From Gammaproteobacteria bacterium TMED112 (GTDB lineage Bacteria > Pseudomonadota > Gammaproteobacteria > Magnimaribacterales > TMED112), in the NCBI GenBank assembly GCA_002170245.2, contig NHFN02000001.1, forward strand, positions 1 to 61,455: a stretch of DNA of 61,455 bases, given 5' to 3'. How positions within the stretch are numbered: the stretch's first letter is position 1; each line of letters begins with the position of its first letter. The notes below the pieces were generated by a model. The model searched no databases and was not told where the DNA came from. It worked only from the letters and a program-made list of their open reading frames with translations. The position numbers were made by a program, and so were the translations under genes. Below are positions 19,738 through 56,972 of this stretch, in pieces.

Positions 19738-20141
19738 TGACAGCCACTTTTTTTTCAGGCTTTAAAGATGAACAAACAGCCCTAGCATTCTTGTTAGAGC
19801 AAATTTATGAGGGCTTTCAAATGCAAAGCTCCATTTGTGTGATCTTAAAAGATGAAAAGCATTGCAATGGCTTCAAAAAAGCTCAACAGCAAAAGTATTT
19901 TGAGAATGGAAAAATTGAATATCTTTATGATGCCAATATCTACCTGTTAGATAGCAAGCCAGCTGATAGTTTTGACGAAATCCATATTCTGAGTGATAAG
20001 GTTTTAGAATTACCTACCAGTGCTTGCGAAAATGTTTATGTCTATACAACTAAAGCTGATGAAGACATCACTAAGGCATCTCGCGAGCTTTATGCTAATC
20101 TGAAGAAGAATAATTTTGATTTAAGTCACGAAGCAGTTTAA
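19737..20141 (+). CDS. holC: DNA polymerase III chi subunit
   Basis: HolC links the clamp loader to SSB during replication. The 134-residue protein is the usual size and begins with a beta strand plus FFSGF. The Pfam-type middle (LLEQIYEGFQMQSSICVILKDE) is recognisable, with later conservation weak. The position between pepA and valS, with TAATG overlaps at both ends, makes the assignment safe. The ssb gene encoding its partner is also in this window, at 60957-61379. Confidence 0.88.
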   Translation: MTATFFSGFKDEQTALAFLLEQIYEGFQMQSSICVILKDEKHCNGFKKAQQQKYFENGKIEYLYDANIYLLDSKPADSFDEIHILSDKVLELPTSACENVYVYTTKADEDITKASRELYANLKKNNFDLSHEAV

Positions 20142-22366
20142 TGGAAGCACAATATTCACCCATACAAATTGAAGAAAAATGGTCAAAAATTTGGGCTGAT
20201 CGTGAATTAGAAAAACCAGGTTCTGAAGACCACTTTTCTCAGATTATTCCCCCGCCAAATGTGACAGGCACACTACATATGGGCCATAGCTTCCAATATG
20301 CCATCATGGATTTTTACACTAGATTCCACCATATGAATGGCACCGATTCTTATTGGCAAGTTGGGACAGACCATGCTGGGATAGCAACACAAATGGTAGT
20401 CGAAAATAATTTACTGAATGAAGGCAAATCTAAAGATGATTTAGGTCGTGAAAAATTTCTTGAGGAAGTTTGGAAATGGAAAGATTATTCAGAAGGTGAA
20501 ATTTCAGCTCAGATGAAACGTTTAGGTATCACAGTTGAATGGGATAAATACAGATTTACTTATGACGATGATTTTTGCCAAGGCGTAAATAAGGCATTTG
20601 TTGAGCTCTACCGCAAAGATAAAATTTATCGCGGCTATCGTTTAGTCAACTGGGATCCATCTTTGAAGACAGCTGTTTCAGATCTTGAAGTAATACGACA
20701 AGAAAAAGATGGTGTGCTTTGGCATATTTCCTATCCGCTAGCGGATTCAGATGAGGTTCTTATTGTGGCAACAACAAGGCCTGAAACCATGTTTGGCGAT
20801 ATGGCCGTAGCAGTAAATCCAAACGATGATAGATTCAAACATTATATTGGTAAGCACGTTGAACTACCCTTTGTGGGTAGAAAAATTCCTGTGATTGGTG
20901 ACGAATACGTTGATATGGAATTTGGAACTGGTTGTTTGAAGATAACACCAGGCCATGACTTCAATGATTACGATATTGGTAAGAAATATGCTTTGCATGA
21001 AGTGGATGGCGTAGTACAAACTTCGGATAAGCTTGAGGATTTTGCCCCAATAAATATTTTTACTGACGAAGCCTTCTCAAATGACACGGTTCCAGCACCT
21101 TTTAATGACCTTGATCGCTTCAAGGTGAGAAAAGCTGTTCTTGAAGAGCTCAAAAATAAAGAATTACTGGTTAAAGAGGAAAAACATCACATAAGTGTCC
21201 CTAGAGGTGAAAGATCCAACATAGTCATTGAGCCAAAACTTAGTTATCAGTGGTACGTAAAAACAGAAGAAATGGCTCAAAAAGCTAATGATGCTGTCAA
21301 TAATGGTGAAGTTGTTTTCCATCCTGGTAATTGGGATAAAACCTACTTCAATTGGATGGATAATATTCAAGATTGGTGCATTAGTCGACAAATTTGGTGG
21401 GGACACCGCATACCTGCCTGGCATGATAGCGAGGGTAATACTTATGTTGGATACGACGAAGATGAAGTACGTAAATTTTATCAACTTGATTCACGTGAAC
21501 TAACGCAAGAAGAAGATGTTTTGGATACTTGGTTCTCAGCCTCACTATGGCCTTTTGGTTCATTGGGCTGGCCAGAAGATACCGAGGACTTTAAAAAGTT
21601 TTTTCCAACCACTTTGTTGGTTACTGGTTTTGATATTATCTTTTTTTGGGTCGCTCGTATGATGATGATGAGTTTAGAGTTTACTGGCAAAGTCCCATTT
21701 AAAGACGTTTATGTGACTGGTCTGATTAGAGATGAAAATGGTCAAAAAATGTCAAAATCTAAAGGAAATATTATCGATCCAATCGATCTCATCTATGGCA
21801 TTGATTTAGAAGACTTAGTGACTAAAAGAACAACAAACCTAATGCAAGAAGGCTTAGCAGAGAAAATTGAGCGTAAAACCCGCAAACAATTTCCTAATGG
21901 TATCGATTCATACGGTACTGATGCAGTACGTATGACATTTTATTCATTAGCAACTCATACCAGAGATATCAGCTTTGAGCTTGGTCGTCTAAAAGGATAT
22001 AGAAATTTCTGTAACAAAATTTGGAATGCTGCCCGTTTTATCAATAACTACCCTATGGAATCAAAGGAATTCGTTGCTAAAAATGATTCCGATAGATGGA
22101 TTGAAGAAGAATTTAATAAAGTAAGTGAACAAATACAGAAAAATATTGCTGAGTACCGTTTAGATTTTGCGATCAATGAAGTTTATGAATTTTTCTGGGG
22201 CAAATTCTGCGATAAATATATTGAAGATTGCAAAGCATCGGGTGAAACAGCAAATCTTCATCCAATGTTGAAGAGAATTTTAATGATGATGCACCCCTTC
22301 TGTCCTTTTATTACCGAAGAAATTAATGAACTTGTTTTTAAAGATGGTTCTTTGATGGATCTTTAA
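20141..22366 (+). CDS. valS: Valyl-tRNA synthetase, C-terminally truncated
   Basis: ValS charges tRNA-Val. The Rossmann signature HMGH is at residues 46-49 and KMSKS at 536-540, and the editing domain lies between them (TTRPETMFGD, then GTGCLKITPGHDFNDY). The anticodon-binding helical domain starts normally after about 590 but the protein ends at residue 741, shortly after HPFCPFITEE. The E. coli enzyme is 951 residues, so the rest of the anticodon-binding region and the C-terminal coiled-coil arm are missing. The reading frame is intact, the stop is followed within 30 bases by the next gene, and no remnant was seen in another frame. Confidence 0.93.
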   Translation: MEAQYSPIQIEEKWSKIWADRELEKPGSEDHFSQIIPPPNVTGTLHMGHSFQYAIMDFYTRFHHMNGTDSYWQVGTDHAGIATQMVVENNLLNEGKSKDDLGREKFLEEVWKWKDYSEGEISAQMKRLGITVEWDKYRFTYDDDFCQGVNKAFVELYRKDKIYRGYRLVNWDPSLKTAVSDLEVIRQEKDGVLWHISYPLADSDEVLIVATTRPETMFGDMAVAVNPNDDRFKHYIGKHVELPFVGRKIPVIGDEYVDMEFGTGCLKITPGHDFNDYDIGKKYALHEVDGVVQTSDKLEDFAPINIFTDEAFSNDTVPAPFNDLDRFKVRKAVLEELKNKELLVKEEKHHISVPRGERSNIVIEPKLSYQWYVKTEEMAQKANDAVNNGEVVFHPGNWDKTYFNWMDNIQDWCISRQIWWGHRIPAWHDSEGNTYVGYDEDEVRKFYQLDSRELTQEEDVLDTWFSASLWPFGSLGWPEDTEDFKKFFPTTLLVTGFDIIFFWVARMMMMSLEFTGKVPFKDVYVTGLIRDENGQKMSKSKGNIIDPIDLIYGIDLEDLVTKRTTNLMQEGLAEKIERKTRKQFPNGIDSYGTDAVRMTFYSLATHTRDISFELGRLKGYRNFCNKIWNAARFINNYPMESKEFVAKNDSDRWIEEEFNKVSEQIQKNIAEYRLDFAINEVYEFFWGKFCDKYIEDCKASGETANLHPMLKRILMMMHPFCPFITEEINELVFKDGSLMDL

Positions 22367-23049: not shown

Positions 23050-23904
23050 TCAAAGCTTGTTATAGATTATTGCTTCTTTCACCTTAGTTCTTCCCTTTGC
23101 TTTACCTGAAATAAAAGTAGTTTTCTCGGTCTCTCTAAAATGCCAACCATCTTTCTTTTTAAAATAATCTTTTACTAGATCAACTGAGAAATTTGAAATT
23201 AATATAGAGCACTTTGATTTCAATTTATTGGAAATTTCTACCATTCTCTCGAGATCCTCAATCGAAAATTCTTTAGCATTATATTTTCTAAAAGTCTTAT
23301 AGGTTTTACTTTCGTAAGGCCTATCAACATAAGGGGGGTCAAGATATATAAAGTCACCCTTCTTTGCTTTTTTCAAAGTTTCTGAAAAATCACAATTTGT
23401 AAGCTCAAAGTCTTTCAAATTTTTTGCACACTCTTTGAAATACTCTTTGTTCGGAAAGGCAATCTTTTTTCTTCTTCCCACTGGTACATTAAAGCTACCA
23501 GAATTATTTTCTCTATACACACCGTTAAAGCACGTTCGATTTAAATAAATGAATTGGTGTGCGCTGTGCTTTTCCTTAACTCTCTCTGGAATTTCTCCAT
23601 TGAAGGCTTTTCGATTCTCATAATATTGTTCTTCCGTATGATTATTAATTAACTCCATTGAATCTCTATAAACTTTAAGAGGATTGCGTTTCAAAGCTTG
23701 ATAAAAACCGATTAATTTTTCGTTGGTATCAGACAGATATCCCTTTGAAATATTAGGTGCCAATAAATCATTCTGATTATGAAGCGCAAAGAAAAAACTT
23801 CCACCCCCAAGAAAAGGCTCAATATAGTTATTAATTTTAGGAGGAATAAGATCTTGTACTTCCTTATACAACCACTTTTTTCCTCCCGGCCATTTTAGTA
23901 TCAT
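23050..23904 (-). CDS. D12-class N6-adenine DNA methyltransferase
   Basis: This 284-residue SAM-dependent enzyme has the Dam/DpnII-like order. An N-terminal KWPGGK motif precedes the SAM site FLGGG (31-35), the target-recognition region follows with FLNRTCFNGVYRENN-like residues (about 119-134), and the catalytic motif DPPY is at 189-192. All key residues look intact. It has no obvious dedicated operon partner on its strand. It is head-to-head with the 876-residue nuclease/DGQHR gene across 16 bases, which suggests joint regulation of a modification and a nuclease function. The recognition sequence cannot be read from the protein. Confidence 0.93.
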   Translation of the reverse strand: MILKWPGGKKWLYKEVQDLIPPKINNYIEPFLGGGSFFFALHNQNDLLAPNISKGYLSDTNEKLIGFYQALKRNPLKVYRDSMELINNHTEEQYYENRKAFNGEIPERVKEKHSAHQFIYLNRTCFNGVYRENNSGSFNVPVGRRKKIAFPNKEYFKECAKNLKDFELTNCDFSETLKKAKKGDFIYLDPPYVDRPYESKTYKTFRKYNAKEFSIEDLERMVEISNKLKSKCSILISNFSVDLVKDYFKKKDGWHFRETEKTTFISGKAKGRTKVKEAIIYNKL

Positions 23905-23920
23905 AAAAGTACATATTATT

Positions 23921-26551
23921 ATGGAGAATTTTACTTACAATCACTACATAGATTTTTCAATTAAAGAAGATAATGACTTTCTTGAAAAAGATAAGCTTGA
24001 AGTGCGCCCTAATAGCAAAATTAGACAAGCAGAACTTGAAGAAAAAGCTAAAGAGAGACTTCACAAAAAAAGATTATCTAAAAGAAGAGGAGATTTAACA
24101 GATGGCCAATATTTAGGTTACAAATTTGAAAAGGAAATGTGGAACTGGTTACTCAAACTTAAACCACAAATAGTAAACCATCCCGGTTATGATCTAAACT
24201 TAGATCTTAAAGGGTATAAGATTGACTCATCCATCTCAAAACCTTATCAGAACACAAAACAAACAGATGTATTTGCAACTTTTAATGACCATGTTTTTAT
24301 AGTTGAGTGTAAAGCTACTGCGGAAAATGCAAATTTCTCCGTCTTGAAAAAAGAAATGCAACTACTAAGAGCTTTAATGCAACATAAGAATAAACGTGTT
24401 GAAAAACTTTTTGGTGAAAGAGCTATTCCAATACATATTGTTGCTCTAAAAGGGTATGAAATATCAGAAGAACAAAAATCTGAAGAATTATCTAATGAAG
24501 GTGGGTCAATAATCATACTTTCTGAAAAAGAGAGAAAATATATAGATATAGTCCTTGAAAGCAGCACAAGTGAAGAATTTGCATTAAACCAATTTCTTGG
24601 ATTTTTTAGAACCGGAAGACCTGATTTTAATAAATGGGTTTTGAATGGGAAGACCAACACATATCAGAAGAAAAAATTTAAAATTGCTGCATTCTCGTCT
24701 AACTCAGGAACAGGAAGGAAACAAAATGTGTATACATTTTCAATAGAACCAAGAGACATGTTAAAGATTTCAACAGTGTCTCATCAGAAAGCAAAAAATA
24801 TTTTCGAATTTGGACGTTCAAGTGGAAAGTACTATCAAAGATTATTGACAGGTAAAAGATTAAATGAAATTGGTGCTCACCTCACAACACATAAGACCCC
24901 TTTTCCGAACAACATACTTGTTAGCCACAGAGGTAAAAGAAAGCTCACCTTTGAACCTGATCCAATTAATGAAAATACAAACAGTGGGAGAAGACCAGGT
25001 AAATTAGTTTTTGATGGCTGTCCAGGAACATTTCATGTTATTGACGGACAACATAGATTATTTGGATATATGGCAGTTAGCCCTAAAGAAGGCGGCTTGA
25101 GAGATAAACATAGATTGATTGTGACGGTATTTGACGAACTTGAAGTTGGTGAAGAAGCTGATATTTTTCTGGAAGTTAATGAAAAAAGTCAAAAAGTAAA
25201 ATCTGATTTAATAATGGAAATTGAATACGCTGCTGAAACACCCTCGAAATCAAATCTTTGTAATGGGGTAATATTTAACTTGAGAGATGATCCCAATTCA
25301 ACACTTTATGACCGAATAGCTCCAGCAGAGGAAAAAAGAAAAAAAGGTCTTCAGCCATGGGATATTAAACCAACAGATCTTAAAAATATATTAATGAAAT
25401 GCTTGATGATTGGAGGTGAAAATTATGAAAGAGGGTTATTTTGGGATACCAACTATAACATTACAGCTAAAAAAATAGCTCATCATATCAATTCAATGTT
25501 AAAAGTGATCAGAGATAGATCTGGATATTGGCATAATAATATTCCTCCTAGACATAAAAGCGCAGTCTGGTACACCGATGATATGGGGAAAAATAGCAAG
25601 GGCTTTCTACAAAATATTTTAACTAAAGGGCTTTTAAAATTAATTGATCGAATCACAATCTGGTGTGAAAAAAATTACAACCTTAAGAATGAAAAGCTTA
25701 CTAGTAAATGCAATGAAATAATGATGGAAATTACTCAGAACTTTAATAAGAAAAGTCCCAGAGAACGATATACGTTTTTTGAAATGAGAAATAAATACGG
25801 CCAAGGTGAGCAAGCTATTGATCTTGTTAGTTCATTATTTCTTACAGAATTTCTTGATGATGAAAAGTATCCTGGCCTCATAACTGATATCGATAGAAAT
25901 AGGGTTGATAACACTGAAAAGGCATCTGGTAAAGAGTACGAAAATGCTATGCTCAGAATTGAGGAGCTTGAAGCACAAATAAAGGATATGTCTGGACCAA
26001 GTGAGATAGCGCAAGCACTTGAAGGTGTTTTTAGATCAAAAATTCCTTATGTTTTTGCAAAATTATTTGGACCAAAATATTTCAGTGATATTAAAGGAGT
26101 TTTTTATAGAGAAAGAGTGCTTAGAGCAAAACTTGATAAAGCCATGGATAGAGTTAGGGAAGCAGAAAAGGTTTTAAAAGGTGATCCTGATCCGGAAAGA
26201 GGAATGCATGATCATGAGATGGAATATCTTGAATGGGTAGATTGGATTGAGATAATAGCTGAACTAATAAAAAGAAAAGATGTGTATAAAAAAGAATATA
26301 TGAACCCAACTATTAAAGAAGATTTGGAAGATATCATAAGAAGAGTTTTTTATGTAGATAACATCAAAGACACAAAGAGCTGTAATTATAGAGAAGGCAC
26401 AAACTGGATGTCAGTTTATAATGAGCTTAGAAGACCGGGAGTCCACAGAGGAACAGCTAAACTTACACCAACACAAATAAAAAAACTTGAGGAATTAGAG
26501 CCAAAGGTAAAAGAAAAAATTCGATTAATGACTGATTTCTATATGCTATAA
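23921..26551 (+). CDS. PD-(D/E)xK nuclease-like and DGQHR domain fusion protein
   Basis: This 876-residue protein is large and composite. Residues about 55-190 look like a restriction-endonuclease fold: Asp116 in TDVFATF, then Glu129-x-Lys131 in IVECKAT. Residues about 255-480 form a DGQHR (DndB-like) domain, with DGQHR exactly at 375-379 in FHVIDGQHRLFGY and the trailing FLEVNEKSQKVKSDLI. DGQHR proteins are linked to phosphorothioate and 7-deazapurine DNA modification systems. The C-terminal 390 residues hold helical segments with a predicted coiled coil (about 670-760). A motif RRPGVH at 837-842 fits the R-x4-H pattern of HEPN RNases. The combined function is unknown; a modification-dependent nuclease is inference. 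Confidence 0.8.
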   Translation: MENFTYNHYIDFSIKEDNDFLEKDKLEVRPNSKIRQAELEEKAKERLHKKRLSKRRGDLTDGQYLGYKFEKEMWNWLLKLKPQIVNHPGYDLNLDLKGYKIDSSISKPYQNTKQTDVFATFNDHVFIVECKATAENANFSVLKKEMQLLRALMQHKNKRVEKLFGERAIPIHIVALKGYEISEEQKSEELSNEGGSIIILSEKERKYIDIVLESSTSEEFALNQFLGFFRTGRPDFNKWVLNGKTNTYQKKKFKIAAFSSNSGTGRKQNVYTFSIEPRDMLKISTVSHQKAKNIFEFGRSSGKYYQRLLTGKRLNEIGAHLTTHKTPFPNNILVSHRGKRKLTFEPDPINENTNSGRRPGKLVFDGCPGTFHVIDGQHRLFGYMAVSPKEGGLRDKHRLIVTVFDELEVGEEADIFLEVNEKSQKVKSDLIMEIEYAAETPSKSNLCNGVIFNLRDDPNSTLYDRIAPAEEKRKKGLQPWDIKPTDLKNILMKCLMIGGENYERGLFWDTNYNITAKKIAHHINSMLKVIRDRSGYWHNNIPPRHKSAVWYTDDMGKNSKGFLQNILTKGLLKLIDRITIWCEKNYNLKNEKLTSKCNEIMMEITQNFNKKSPRERYTFFEMRNKYGQGEQAIDLVSSLFLTEFLDDEKYPGLITDIDRNRVDNTEKASGKEYENAMLRIEELEAQIKDMSGPSEIAQALEGVFRSKIPYVFAKLFGPKYFSDIKGVFYRERVLRAKLDKAMDRVREAEKVLKGDPDPERGMHDHEMEYLEWVDWIEIIAELIKRKDVYKKEYMNPTIKEDLEDIIRRVFYVDNIKDTKSCNYREGTNWMSVYNELRRPGVHRGTAKLTPTQIKKLEELEPKVKEKIRLMTDFYML

Positions 26552-26971
26552 ATTTACCTCAATAGTTACAAGGCTAAGCTCTTTCCACATTTTTATTAAT
26601 TCGTAATCATTTTCAAATACACAATAGATTTCATCAGATTTGAAGTTTTTTTCAAAAATCTCTTTTTTTATTTCCAGCTTATTTCTTTGATCACCGTCAT
26701 TCCTCATAAGTAATTTAAAGTCAAAGTCAAAGTGTTCTTTTAGCCAAAGCGTCGTACTATATCTGTATCTTTCAGGTCGACCAGTAAGAAAAACTATTTC
26801 TTTATCACTAACCTGTTCTTGAATAACTTTATCAATAATAGTTTGGATCGGTAGATCATTCACTAGTTCTGAAAAAAACCCATCCCAGTCTTTTTTGCCC
26901 TCTAAAAAATGTTGGCGATGATCGTTATTAGCAACAGTGCCATCGATATCACACAGAATAATATTTGCCAT
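26546..26971 (-). CDS. HAD-type polynucleotide 3'-phosphatase-like protein
   Basis: The 141-residue protein resembles the phosphatase half of phage T4 polynucleotide kinase. Motif I is CDIDGTVANNDHR (Asp8 and Asp10), motif II is FLTGRPERYR (about 60-69) and the basic residue region RNKLEIKKEIF follows near 95. The usual motif IV Asp-Asp-Arg is Glu120-Asn121-Asp122 (FENDYELIKMW), which may reduce or alter catalysis. It is convergent with the nuclease/DGQHR gene and overlaps its end by 6 bases. Such enzymes remove 3'-phosphates or 2',3'-cyclic phosphates; the substrate here is not known. Confidence 0.72.
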   Translation of the reverse strand: MANIILCDIDGTVANNDHRQHFLEGKKDWDGFFSELVNDLPIQTIIDKVIQEQVSDKEIVFLTGRPERYRYSTTLWLKEHFDFDFKLLMRNDGDQRNKLEIKKEIFEKNFKSDEIYCVFENDYELIKMWKELSLVTIEVNL

Positions 26972-27020
26972 AAAGTTATTAGTGAAATTGTAGTTTTTTT
27001 ATAGTGATTTAGCTAAAGAT

Positions 27021-27542
27021 TTAGACGCCTAAAGCTACTTTCTTTAATTGAATGCTTCTGTAGAGCTCGTCAAAATCAACTTGGGTAAATTTGTCGTTAT
27101 CCTGTAAAACTGTCTCAAGCATAGCTTCAATTTGTTGGAAATGGTCAGAAGTTTGTGCATCACGCAAAGTTTGTGAAAAAACCCGCCTAACCCAGTCGAT
27201 ATCCGAATAGCTTGAGCTGCCTGAAATTGTCTTCAGAGCTTGTATTTTTGTGTTGAAGTTATGATCTTCCTCCAGCTCAAAAGAATCGTCCTTTGCTTGC
27301 ATTAAAGTATACTTACCCGGGATTGAATATCCATCAGCATTGAGTAACTTAAATTCAACGTTAAACATGATTGAAAGGGTTTGCTCTACTTCCCTAACTG
27401 TAAGATCATCTCTTAATTCAAAATTATCAATTTTATGTGGTTTGCTTGGGGCATTTATTGGAACAAAGCTACATCCCAAAGAGCAATGCTCTTTGAGATG
27501 TTTCTTTATTAGTACTAAGGAAGTATTAACTGATATTAACAC
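27021..27542 (-). CDS. Hypothetical protein, second gene of a two-gene operon
   Basis: I do not recognise this 173-residue protein. Residues about 40-85 (DDLTVREVEQTLSIMFNVEFKLLN) could form a small ubiquitin-like beta-grasp unit, and the C-terminal half is helical and acidic. The only available start is GTG 27542, three bases after the stop of the upstream gene, without a clear Shine-Dalgarno sequence, so its translation is probably coupled. A strong inverted repeat (27471-27501) lies within its first codons. It is not secreted and has no membrane segment. Confidence in the start is low, in the gene moderate. Confidence 0.6.
   Translation of the reverse strand: MLISVNTSLVLIKKHLKEHCSLGCSFVPINAPSKPHKIDNFELRDDLTVREVEQTLSIMFNVEFKLLNADGYSIPGKYTLMQAKDDSFELEEDHNFNTKIQALKTISGSSSYSDIDWVRRVFSQTLRDAQTSDHFQQIEAMLETVLQDNDKFTQVDFDELYRSIQLKKVALGV
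27471..27501. repeat. Inverted repeat of 14-base arms inside a gene
   Basis: The arms ACATCCCAAAGAGC (27471-27484) and GCTCTTTGAGATGT (27488-27501) are complementary with a single mismatch and are separated by three bases. The repeat lies within the 5' part of the 173-residue gene, so it is transcribed and would form a hairpin in its mRNA. There is no U tract directly downstream on either strand. It could be a protein-binding site, an mRNA translation-control hairpin or a relic of an insertion. It is the strongest such structure I found outside RNA genes. Confidence 0.75.
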
Positions 27543-27545
27543 TAA

Positions 27546-28274
27546 TTAGTCGTCTGATGGTACAGGTGTAGCTTCAGCTGTATAAGTCTCAATCGGGACA
27601 AAAACAGATGCCGTTACGTTGATTGTGCCATTTTTAATTTTTCCTGGTTTTAGACCCCAGAAGCTTGGAGTAAAAGTCATTGATGACTTGGCTGGAAGCT
27701 CTCTATAATCCATTGTATCTTCCAACTGCGCGTCTCTTTGATCCATAAGCTTTAGAGTTGTCTGAGCACGGGCTATGTAAGAATCTGAAGTATTTCTGAT
27801 GCTTGTGGTCATTTCAAACTCTGCATCACCATCGTCTGAATTTTTCATTCTTAAAACACTCATTCCCATAATCTCCGCAACGCCACCAATTGAGATATTT
27901 TTCTTTATCTCAGACATGTCGCCTTCATTTTCAGGTATGTCTAAAACACCTACCTTGATAAACTCTCTTCTGTAAGAAGTCATATGTACTAATGCTTTGC
28001 AATCCGCACCAGTTCCAGATCCAAATTTGTCTTTATGAACACTCTGCCAACTCAACAGATCAACATCTCCTGAATCTTTTGAGGCTATAAAAACTCTATC
28101 ATCTTCATTTTCACTACCACCAACAGCTACATCGTTTTCGTTGAGCATGATGATGGAAGTCTTTACAAATTCAACATCGTGATCAGAAGTATTTTCCAGT
28201 ACTCCTGCCATTTCAAAATTAATAGTCCCGTAGTCATTATCGGGTTTATCGTAAGTAAATTTTGTTACTTTCAT
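27546..28274 (-). CDS. Hypothetical protein with two tandem beta-rich repeats
   Basis: The 242-residue protein has no signal peptide or membrane segment. It looks internally duplicated: residues about 5-115 (INFEMAGVLENTSDHDVEFVKTS) and about 120-235 (AEFEMTTSIRNTSDSYIARAQTT) share the pattern of an FEM strand, an N-T-S-D turn and an aromatic or serine core, suggesting two beta-sandwich domains. No family is recognised. It starts with ATG 28274, preceded by GGAG seven bases upstream, and has a promoter at 28314-28342. It heads an operon with the 173-residue protein, so the two probably act together. Confidence 0.7.
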   Translation of the reverse strand: MKVTKFTYDKPDNDYGTINFEMAGVLENTSDHDVEFVKTSIIMLNENDVAVGGSENEDDRVFIASKDSGDVDLLSWQSVHKDKFGSGTGADCKALVHMTSYRREFIKVGVLDIPENEGDMSEIKKNISIGGVAEIMGMSVLRMKNSDDGDAEFEMTTSIRNTSDSYIARAQTTLKLMDQRDAQLEDTMDYRELPAKSSMTFTPSFWGLKPGKIKNGTINVTASVFVPIETYTAEATPVPSDD

Positions 28275-28313
28275 GTGTAATCTCCGTTTGCACTTTTTTA
28301 AGAGCGAAAGATA

Positions 28314-28342
28314 ATTTTATGTATTTTTACAAGACATTGCAA
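28314..28342 (-). promoter_or_regulatory. Sigma-70-like promoter of the two-gene unknown operon
   Basis: On the minus strand TTGCAA (28337-28342) is a plausible -35 and TAAAAT (28314-28319) a plausible -10, separated by exactly 17 bases and lying about 40 bases before ATG 28274. It is among the few well-formed promoters readable by eye here, in a gap of about 100 bases. Confidence 0.6.
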
Positions 28343-28373
28343 TGAAACTGTGAGGGACTAAAGTTAAGAATTA

Positions 28374-56627: not shown

Positions 56628-56972
56628 GGGGGCGTATTAGGCTTTGACGTCTACCACGGAACCCAAAGCGCATATCGAGCAAAAACATAACTCGTAAAAA
56701 TTTGTTTAAAAATTTAGTTGCAGATAACTACAACTATAGATTGGCAGCTTAATGTCAACCTGCTATCATTTGTGACCTACACCATTTGATAGTAGTCATT
56801 TTGTAGGAGTAGCTTTATAGCCTGTCCAACTATAGAGTGAATTTTTGGACTATGCTTAGTATGTCTTGATCATCAGGCTATACTAAAGCTGAAATTAATA
56901 GATGAATCTATATATGTAGAAGCTAGGGGAAAGTGATGACGGACGTGGGTTCAAATCCCGCCGCCTCCACCA
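56628..56972 (+). ncRNA. ssrA: Transfer-messenger RNA (tmRNA), single-piece
   Basis: The 5' end GGGGGCGTATTAGGCTTTGACG and the 3' end with GGGTTCAAATCCC and CCA form the tRNA-like domain: seven acceptor pairs, 56628-56634 with 56962-56968, including one G-U. Ala-type identity is expected but the G-U sits at pair 3-70. The internal tag frame lies at 56720-56752. The RNA is one continuous piece of about 345 bases, not the split form of alphaproteobacteria. It lies between smpB and rpsT. Confidence 0.95.
56720..56752 (+). other. tmRNA tag reading frame ADNYNYRLAA
   Basis: From the resume codon GCA (56720-56722) the frame reads A-D-N-Y-N-Y-R-L-A-A and stops with TAA (56750-56752). The upstream TTAGTT matches the usual pre-tag context (TTAGTC in E. 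coli). The final LAA is the ClpXP degron. The middle differs from E. coli (ANDENYALAA), notably with an Arg before LAA. Confidence 0.9.

Follow-up and report, generated by a model that had tools for sequence, protein, structure and literature searches.

The 61,455-nucleotide stretch of contig NHFN02000001.1 from Gammaproteobacteria bacterium TMED112 analyzed here (the window) carries a gene for a D12-class DNA methyltransferase (MTase) head to head with a gene for a large protein joining a PD-(D/E)xK nuclease region to a DGQHR domain. This pair probably constitutes a two-gene, type-II-like restriction-modification (R-M) system located on a mobile cassette. R-M fits best because the pair combines a protecting methylase, an intact nuclease, mobility and natural controls. 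The window is a contig of a 1.02-Mb genome (92% complete), which is small, AT-rich and appears SAR86-like. The gene order proposed in the initial annotation (a D12 MTase with intact DPPY, 16 bp from a divergent 876-residue protein that is followed by a convergent phosphatase gene) is borne out by the open reading frames (ORFs). The features, in window coordinates, are as follows.

23050..23904, minus strand: D12-class (Dam/DpnM-like) adenine-N6 DNA methyltransferase, 284 aa (PF02086, TIGR00571, 2dpm DpnM)
23329-23340, minus strand: DPPY motif of the D12 MTase, residues 189-192, intact
23905..23920, no strand: 16-bp gap separating the two divergent start codons (ORFs)
23921..26551, plus strand: predicted restriction nuclease, 876 aa, with PD-(D/E)xK region, DGQHR (ParB/Srx-type) domain and helical C terminus (profiles, motifs, models)
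24098..24565, plus strand: PD-(D/E)xK nuclease region, about residues 60-215, with E70, Q114, D116, E129 and K131 (motif conservation, CARF_PDDEXK, Foldseek)
24716..25360, plus strand: DGQHR domain, residues 266-480, which also holds YQR and FxxxN motifs (TIGR03187, motifs, Foldseek)
25043-25057, plus strand: DGQHR motif, residues 375-379 (sequence)
25361..26548, plus strand: all-helical C-terminal part, weakly Swt1-type HEPN-like (HEPN_Swt1 and PDC-M34B in relatives)
26546..26971, minus strand: PNKP-type HAD phosphatase, 141 aa (HAD_PNKP, PHROG_415, Pnkp1 4xrp)

Linkage of a D12 MTase to a DGQHR nuclease in other genomes was confirmed by a neighbourhood search: 17 of the 22 non-redundant loci have a D12 gene adjoining the full-length nuclease, and three arrangements occur among them. 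Besides the divergent one, tandem MTase-nuclease order is found in G332, G203, G345 (split over two contig ends), G751, L104, L106/L107 and L109, and the reverse tandem order, with overlapping genes, in L101, L102, L103, L108, G1072 and G1209. The hosts comprise the SAR86-like order of the window, other Gammaproteobacteria, further Pseudomonadota, G751, the Alphaproteobacteria-type G1072 and G1209, and prophage contigs. The window's three-gene set recurs, with its orientation unchanged, in three more members of the order: G008 shares the site, and G080 and G186 have the set at two others, which gives at least three genomic sites within the order. Among 203 genomes of the order, a D12 match is present in all six that carry the nuclease and in 9 of the 197 others (15 in total, some of the matches weak); Fisher's test gives 5.5e-8, or 4e-6 with G019 scored as lacking D12, both p-values overstating the strength of the association, since related genomes are non-independent. 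Distances between MTases rise with those between nucleases (r 0.54, reached in 8 of 20,000 permutations). The window protein is encoded by no known phage searched, a query with a relative matched short DGQHR proteins only, and clade profiles run against more viral sequences added no locus.

The MTase matches Pfam MethyltransfD12 (PF02086) at 1.6e-46 and TIGR00571 (dam) above its cut-off, and its closest solved structure in a sequence search is DpnII methylase 1 (DpnM, 2dpm, E 8e-36). These similarities place it in the D12/Dam family, with DpnM and E. coli Dam as its nearest relatives. In Dam, an arginine contacts the first guanine of the target. This arginine is retained in the window MTase, and a later position of the recognition loop differs (NGVYREN...NVPVGRR versus NGLCRYN...NVPFGRY in Dam). 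Due to the kept arginine, the changed later position and the kinship with DpnM and Dam, a GAT-containing target, not necessarily GATC, is plausible. GATC usage in the window is near expectation (0.89) and uninformative.

The N terminus of the large protein had been proposed to be PD-(D/E)xK-like, with Asp116, Glu129 and Lys131 as catalytic residues. In an alignment of 18 relatives, E70, Q114, D116, E129 and C130 show little or no variation, and most members have K131; D116, E129 and K131 are intact in the window protein and in 15 of 17 D12-adjacent nucleases. By sequence, the match of the window protein itself is weak (Hjc, 0.053), and no restriction-enzyme model of the PADLOC library matches it; a sequence search of solved structures with this protein or its profile gave nothing significant. 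Relatives yield nuclease-type matches: CARF_PDDEXK (3.5e-5, in L106), Csx1/ARF nuclease (1.3e-5), NERD (0.0019) and Hjc (0.0021). Foldseek with the model of the window protein places the small subunit of R.BspD6I first (probability 0.99), followed by ParB-N and SspE. Because this model was too weak, the relative L106 was modelled with AlphaFold2 (pLDDT 80.5). Against the Protein Data Bank (PDB), the L106 model matches Cdn1/Card1 (probability 1.0), ParB-N (0.90), McrC nuclease chains (0.84) and Hjc; its matches to viral models include proteins of the GmrSD N-terminal, sulfur-modification and ParB/sulfiredoxin kinds. With Foldseek E-values against the PDB of 0.002-0.1 at best, the fold assignment leans on the agreement of probability, sequence motifs and match identity. 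The fold comparison specified beforehand thus came out in favour of the proposal in the model of a relative, which supports a PD-(D/E)xK fold for the nuclease region and a ParB fold for the middle one.

The DGQHR motif at residues 375-379, also reported in the initial annotation, is present in a domain that NCBIfam TIGR03187 recognizes above its cut-off (84.5 versus 58.9 bits, E 1e-23), and the YQR, DGQHR and FxxxN motifs are invariant or nearly so in the 18 relatives. In PADLOC, each of the 18 aligned members is most similar to DpdB (best 1.8e-26); the window protein reaches 23.7 bits with the DpdB model NF041060 (cut-off 300), and the DndB models stay under their own cut-offs. No dnd or dpd partner genes occur beside any D12-linked locus examined. 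Membership in Dnd was rejected on these grounds (no dndA/C/D/E, sub-cut-off DndB scores), as was membership in Dpd (no DpdA transglycosylase or dpd genes nearby, a score far below equivalog level). Of the earlier designation as DndB-like, the shared ParB/Srx-type domain therefore stands and the link to phosphorothioation does not. GmrSD-type membership (type IV) was discarded as well, the motif being DGQHR and not DGQQR, with no HNH match and PD-(D/E)xK instead. A DndB-like protein binds ATP and GTP (PMC12704722). In view of this and of the ParB/Srx kinship, binding of a nucleoside triphosphate (NTP) by the DGQHR part is probable.

The C-terminal part is all-helical. HEPN_Swt1 matches it in the pNL1 relative at 0.0008, below the profile cut-off, and PDC-M34B in L106 at 1.1e-10. 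The Rx4H motif is present in the window protein and lost in G080, G186, G184, L104 and L109. Assignment to the HEPN RNases or abortive infection (Abi) proteins was rejected, since Rx4-6H is not conserved and the HEPN_Swt1 score is sub-cut-off. A Phyllobacterium plasmid carries a gene matching this C-terminal part of the nuclease only (L117, 7046-7699; 56% identity to G203), beside a KAP NTPase gene; it is possibly a remnant or a free-standing module.

Mobility of the locus is evident from its insertion site. The flanking genes, one of the SDR family and one of the PDDEXK_1 family, are separated by 1 bp where close relatives have the site empty (G010, G002, G005, G014 and others), and no target-site duplication was seen at the insert ends. 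The insert and its remaining genes are as follows.

23050..28373, no strand: whole insert between the SDR gene and the PDDEXK_1 gene (empty sites in close relatives)
27021-27542 and 27546-28274: two genes of the insert without a Pfam match, one weakly FxLYD (window sequence)

The latter two genes are absent from the corresponding site of G008. In other relatives (L012-L027), the same slot holds an MrcB_N gene or thioredoxin-like, trypsin-like, outer-membrane protein (OMP) or unknown genes; the SDR/PDDEXK_1 junction is a cargo insertion hotspot in the genus. The pair is also carried on prophage contigs.

Related proteins occur in other gene settings. On plasmid pNL1 (L007, 6869-13367) and a Rhizobium plasmid (L008, 6800-13504), a PD-(D/E)xK-DGQHR gene stands with short DGQHR, radical SAM and HATPase genes; these four form a conserved cluster of their own that lacks D12. 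Pairs of a short DGQHR gene and a gene of about 300 aa of unknown family were found at L118 (7001-8980), L120 (5947-7817), L119 (5132-7927) and L009 (427-4303); their settings include a Pf filamentous phage, the umuD-umuC interval of a Providencia plasmid and, in Acinetobacter, the neighbourhood of an RsrI-type MTase or of a NotI-family enzyme.

Members that naturally lack the MTase serve as controls. In L105 (D116N and K131R), pNL1 (K131R) and the Rhizobium plasmid (K131T), no D12 is present in the whole record and catalytic residues are changed, against an intact D, E, K motif in 15 of 17 D12-adjacent nucleases (Fisher 0.009). Decayed nucleases are also found beside D12, in G203 (E70K, K131R) and G1209 (Q114K, E129Q); this is expected of an R-M system, since loss of the nuclease is harmless.

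Computation shows what the genes are, how their products fold, which nuclease residues are conserved, and that the genes are linked and mobile; methylation, cutting of unmethylated DNA, NTP gating and the role of the phosphatase are inferred. The D12 enzyme would methylate adenine in its target, marking self DNA, and the PD-(D/E)xK-DGQHR protein would recognize the unmarked site on incoming DNA and cut. For the DGQHR (ParB/Srx-type) domain, binding of ATP or GTP and a function as the DNA-engagement switch that gates nuclease activity are most likely. Oligomerisation or contact with the target is the probable function of the helical C terminus, joined in some members by an RNase fallback. In the window's order, the PNKP-type phosphatase would be an addition, perhaps for nucleic-acid 3' ends. 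That these parts form a separate R-M class is a tentative and rather doubtful extension; in such a class, a ParB/Srx switch (DGQHR) would gate a PD-(D/E)xK nuclease sensing missing D12 methylation, some lineages would have a HEPN-like module to fall back on, and the SAR86-like order would have recruited a phosphatase for 3' ends.

Several observations weigh against an R-M system. The AlphaFold model of the window protein is poor (pLDDT 62). G184 keeps nuclease and phosphatase, and its sole D12 match lies on a different contig. Between G000 and G008, the MTases are 76% identical and the nucleases 29%, which is odd for partners reading the same site and suggests, on sequence comparison, a nuclease replaced or fast diversifying beside a kept methylase. 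Damaged MTases accompany intact nuclease motifs in three loci: in G019 an internal deletion leaves a 32-aa ORF (the first ~24 and last ~8 residues), the nuclease gene running past the contig end; the MTase of L109 has one stop codon and that of G332 one frameshift. All three are metagenome-assembled genome or viral contigs, in which assembly or sequencing error is possible; if the damage is real, the argument from the D12-less loci is weakened.

Abortive infection is an unlikely alternative, in which the DGQHR NTPase and/or the HEPN-like C terminus would kill or arrest the cell by NTP depletion or RNA cleavage, the PD-(D/E)xK region acting mainly as a sensor and the MTase silencing the complex at self DNA. 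ParB/Srx proteins have been proposed as nucleotide-degrading effectors (PMC10853773), and the weak HEPN_Swt1 and PDC-M34B similarities, as well as the split relatives, in which a short DGQHR gene accompanies a ~300-aa gene and an MTase may or may not be present, agree with such a function. It is opposed by the loss of the HEPN Rx4H in the five members named above and by the nuclease residues kept in most MTase-linked members.

It is decidedly improbable that the DGQHR protein is a modification helper, driving further DNA modification with D12 as DpdB does for DpdA, with the nuclease part used for insertion or repair. DpdB, its best PADLOC similarity, is a ParB-like ATPase assisting base insertion (PMC12839542), and radical-SAM, HATPase and short DGQHR genes adjoin the protein in pNL1 and Rhizobium; however, no transglycosylase, sulfur-transfer or other modification gene lies near the D12-linked loci, where 15 of 17 members have an intact PD-(D/E)xK site.

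A type IV-like nuclease cutting methylated or otherwise marked DNA, with the MTase as decoy or regulator, is very unlikely. Its nearest model is GmrSD, whose DGQQR domain, of ParB/Srx kinship, is the closest characterized DGQHR relative acting in restriction (PMC4619093), but such a nuclease would attack a host bearing the linked D12 MTase, and the 17/22 linkage argues for protection. The initial annotation had left both options, the protein sensing or cutting DNA lacking or carrying the methyl mark; repeated linkage to the MTase disfavours the second, and the first is favoured. Although the site does gather varied genes, an orphan MTase beside an unrelated large protein by chance is hardly credible and is refuted for MTase and nuclease by their strong co-occurrence in distant taxa and three arrangements.

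The phosphatase matches HAD_PNKP (PF25109; 5.3e-20, 72.4 versus 27.6 bits), PHROG_415 (4.7e-30) and Pnkp1 4xrp (4e-8), carries CDIDGT at residues 7-12 and is akin to phage polynucleotide kinase/phosphatases (best 35-38% identity). Its gene is convergent with that of the nuclease, the 3' ends sharing 6 bp, and adjoins it in all five loci of the window's order whose contig continues. It is present in just 5 of the 101 nearest relatives, two of which (G077, G095) lack the nuclease, and no match was found near the scanned loci outside the order. It occurs without the nuclease in two genomes of the order, as a homologue (59%) at L048 (7637-8080) and L049 (405-848). Seen in this order only and occurring alone in two genomes, the phosphatase was rejected as a core component; of the trio first proposed, the repeatedly linked D12/nuclease pair holds and the phosphatase gene is real, though outside the core. 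The weakly HEPN-like C terminus, the insertion hotspot and the earlier reports of a ParB-HEPN fusion and of a HEPN/ParB/DNA-methylase operon had escaped the initial annotation. Processing of nucleic-acid 3' ends after cutting is a guess at its role.

The 16-bp gap leaves no room for a pair of complete promoters, and the control signals must therefore lie partly within the genes; in a promoter scan, promoter-like sites were no more frequent than in shuffled sequence. Elsewhere in the window, the valyl-tRNA synthetase ORF (20141-22366) is just 741 aa, equal in length in G008 and G019 and so apparently a lineage trait, and a tmRNA gene lies at 56628-56972 (tag ADNYNYRLAA).

If the R-M interpretation is true, the pair adds an R-M architecture that goes unrecognised by the PADLOC models, which see only an MTase and weak DpdB similarity. 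The widespread, poorly understood DGQHR/DndB domain would gain a testable role in switching a nuclease by nucleotide, and marine genomes of the SAR86-like kind, though streamlined and very small, would still exchange R-M-type cargo at a fixed slot. No description of the D12 pair as an R-M system was found in the part of the open-access literature on DGQHR that was covered; REBASE may list it as putative R-M. Parts have been noted before (a ParB-HEPN fusion, 2013), and the pair itself is most likely a defence system of R-M type that has gone unrecognised. The sections of the 2013 HEPN survey concerned describe a fusion of a Swt1-type HEPN domain with ParB (Saro_3948, apparently identical with the pNL1 relative of this analysis) and the MAE_28990 HEPN family in an operon with ParB and a DNA methylase (PMC3710099). 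A gene set of methylase, ParB and HEPN is thereby on record; in those sections the PD-(D/E)xK region and the D12 pairing are unmentioned and the ParB part is called a nuclease.

PD-Lambda-5, a compact R-M plus Abi system (PMC9519451), has a related D12-type MTase as its component B (7e-13); the relatedness extends no further, the large protein matching no other PD-Lambda-5 component. DndB and DpdB share the DGQHR domain with its QR, DGQHR and FxxxN motifs and have sequence similarity to the window protein, which is, in contrast, fused to PD-(D/E)xK, methylase-linked and without dndA/C/D/E or dpdA/C-K partners. In GmrSD and SspE (DUF262-type, DGQQR), both among the Foldseek matches, a homologous ParB/Srx-type NTP-binding domain is joined to a nuclease. 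Theirs is HNH (DUF1524 in GmrSD) and responds to modified DNA, whereas the window pair combines PD-(D/E)xK with a protecting methylase. With the DpnII/Dam-type D12 methylases and classical type II R-M, the window pair has in common a DpnM/Dam-like MTase and the position of an MTase beside a PD-(D/E)xK nuclease, but the window nuclease is far larger and carries a DGQHR ParB/Srx-type domain and a helical C terminus.

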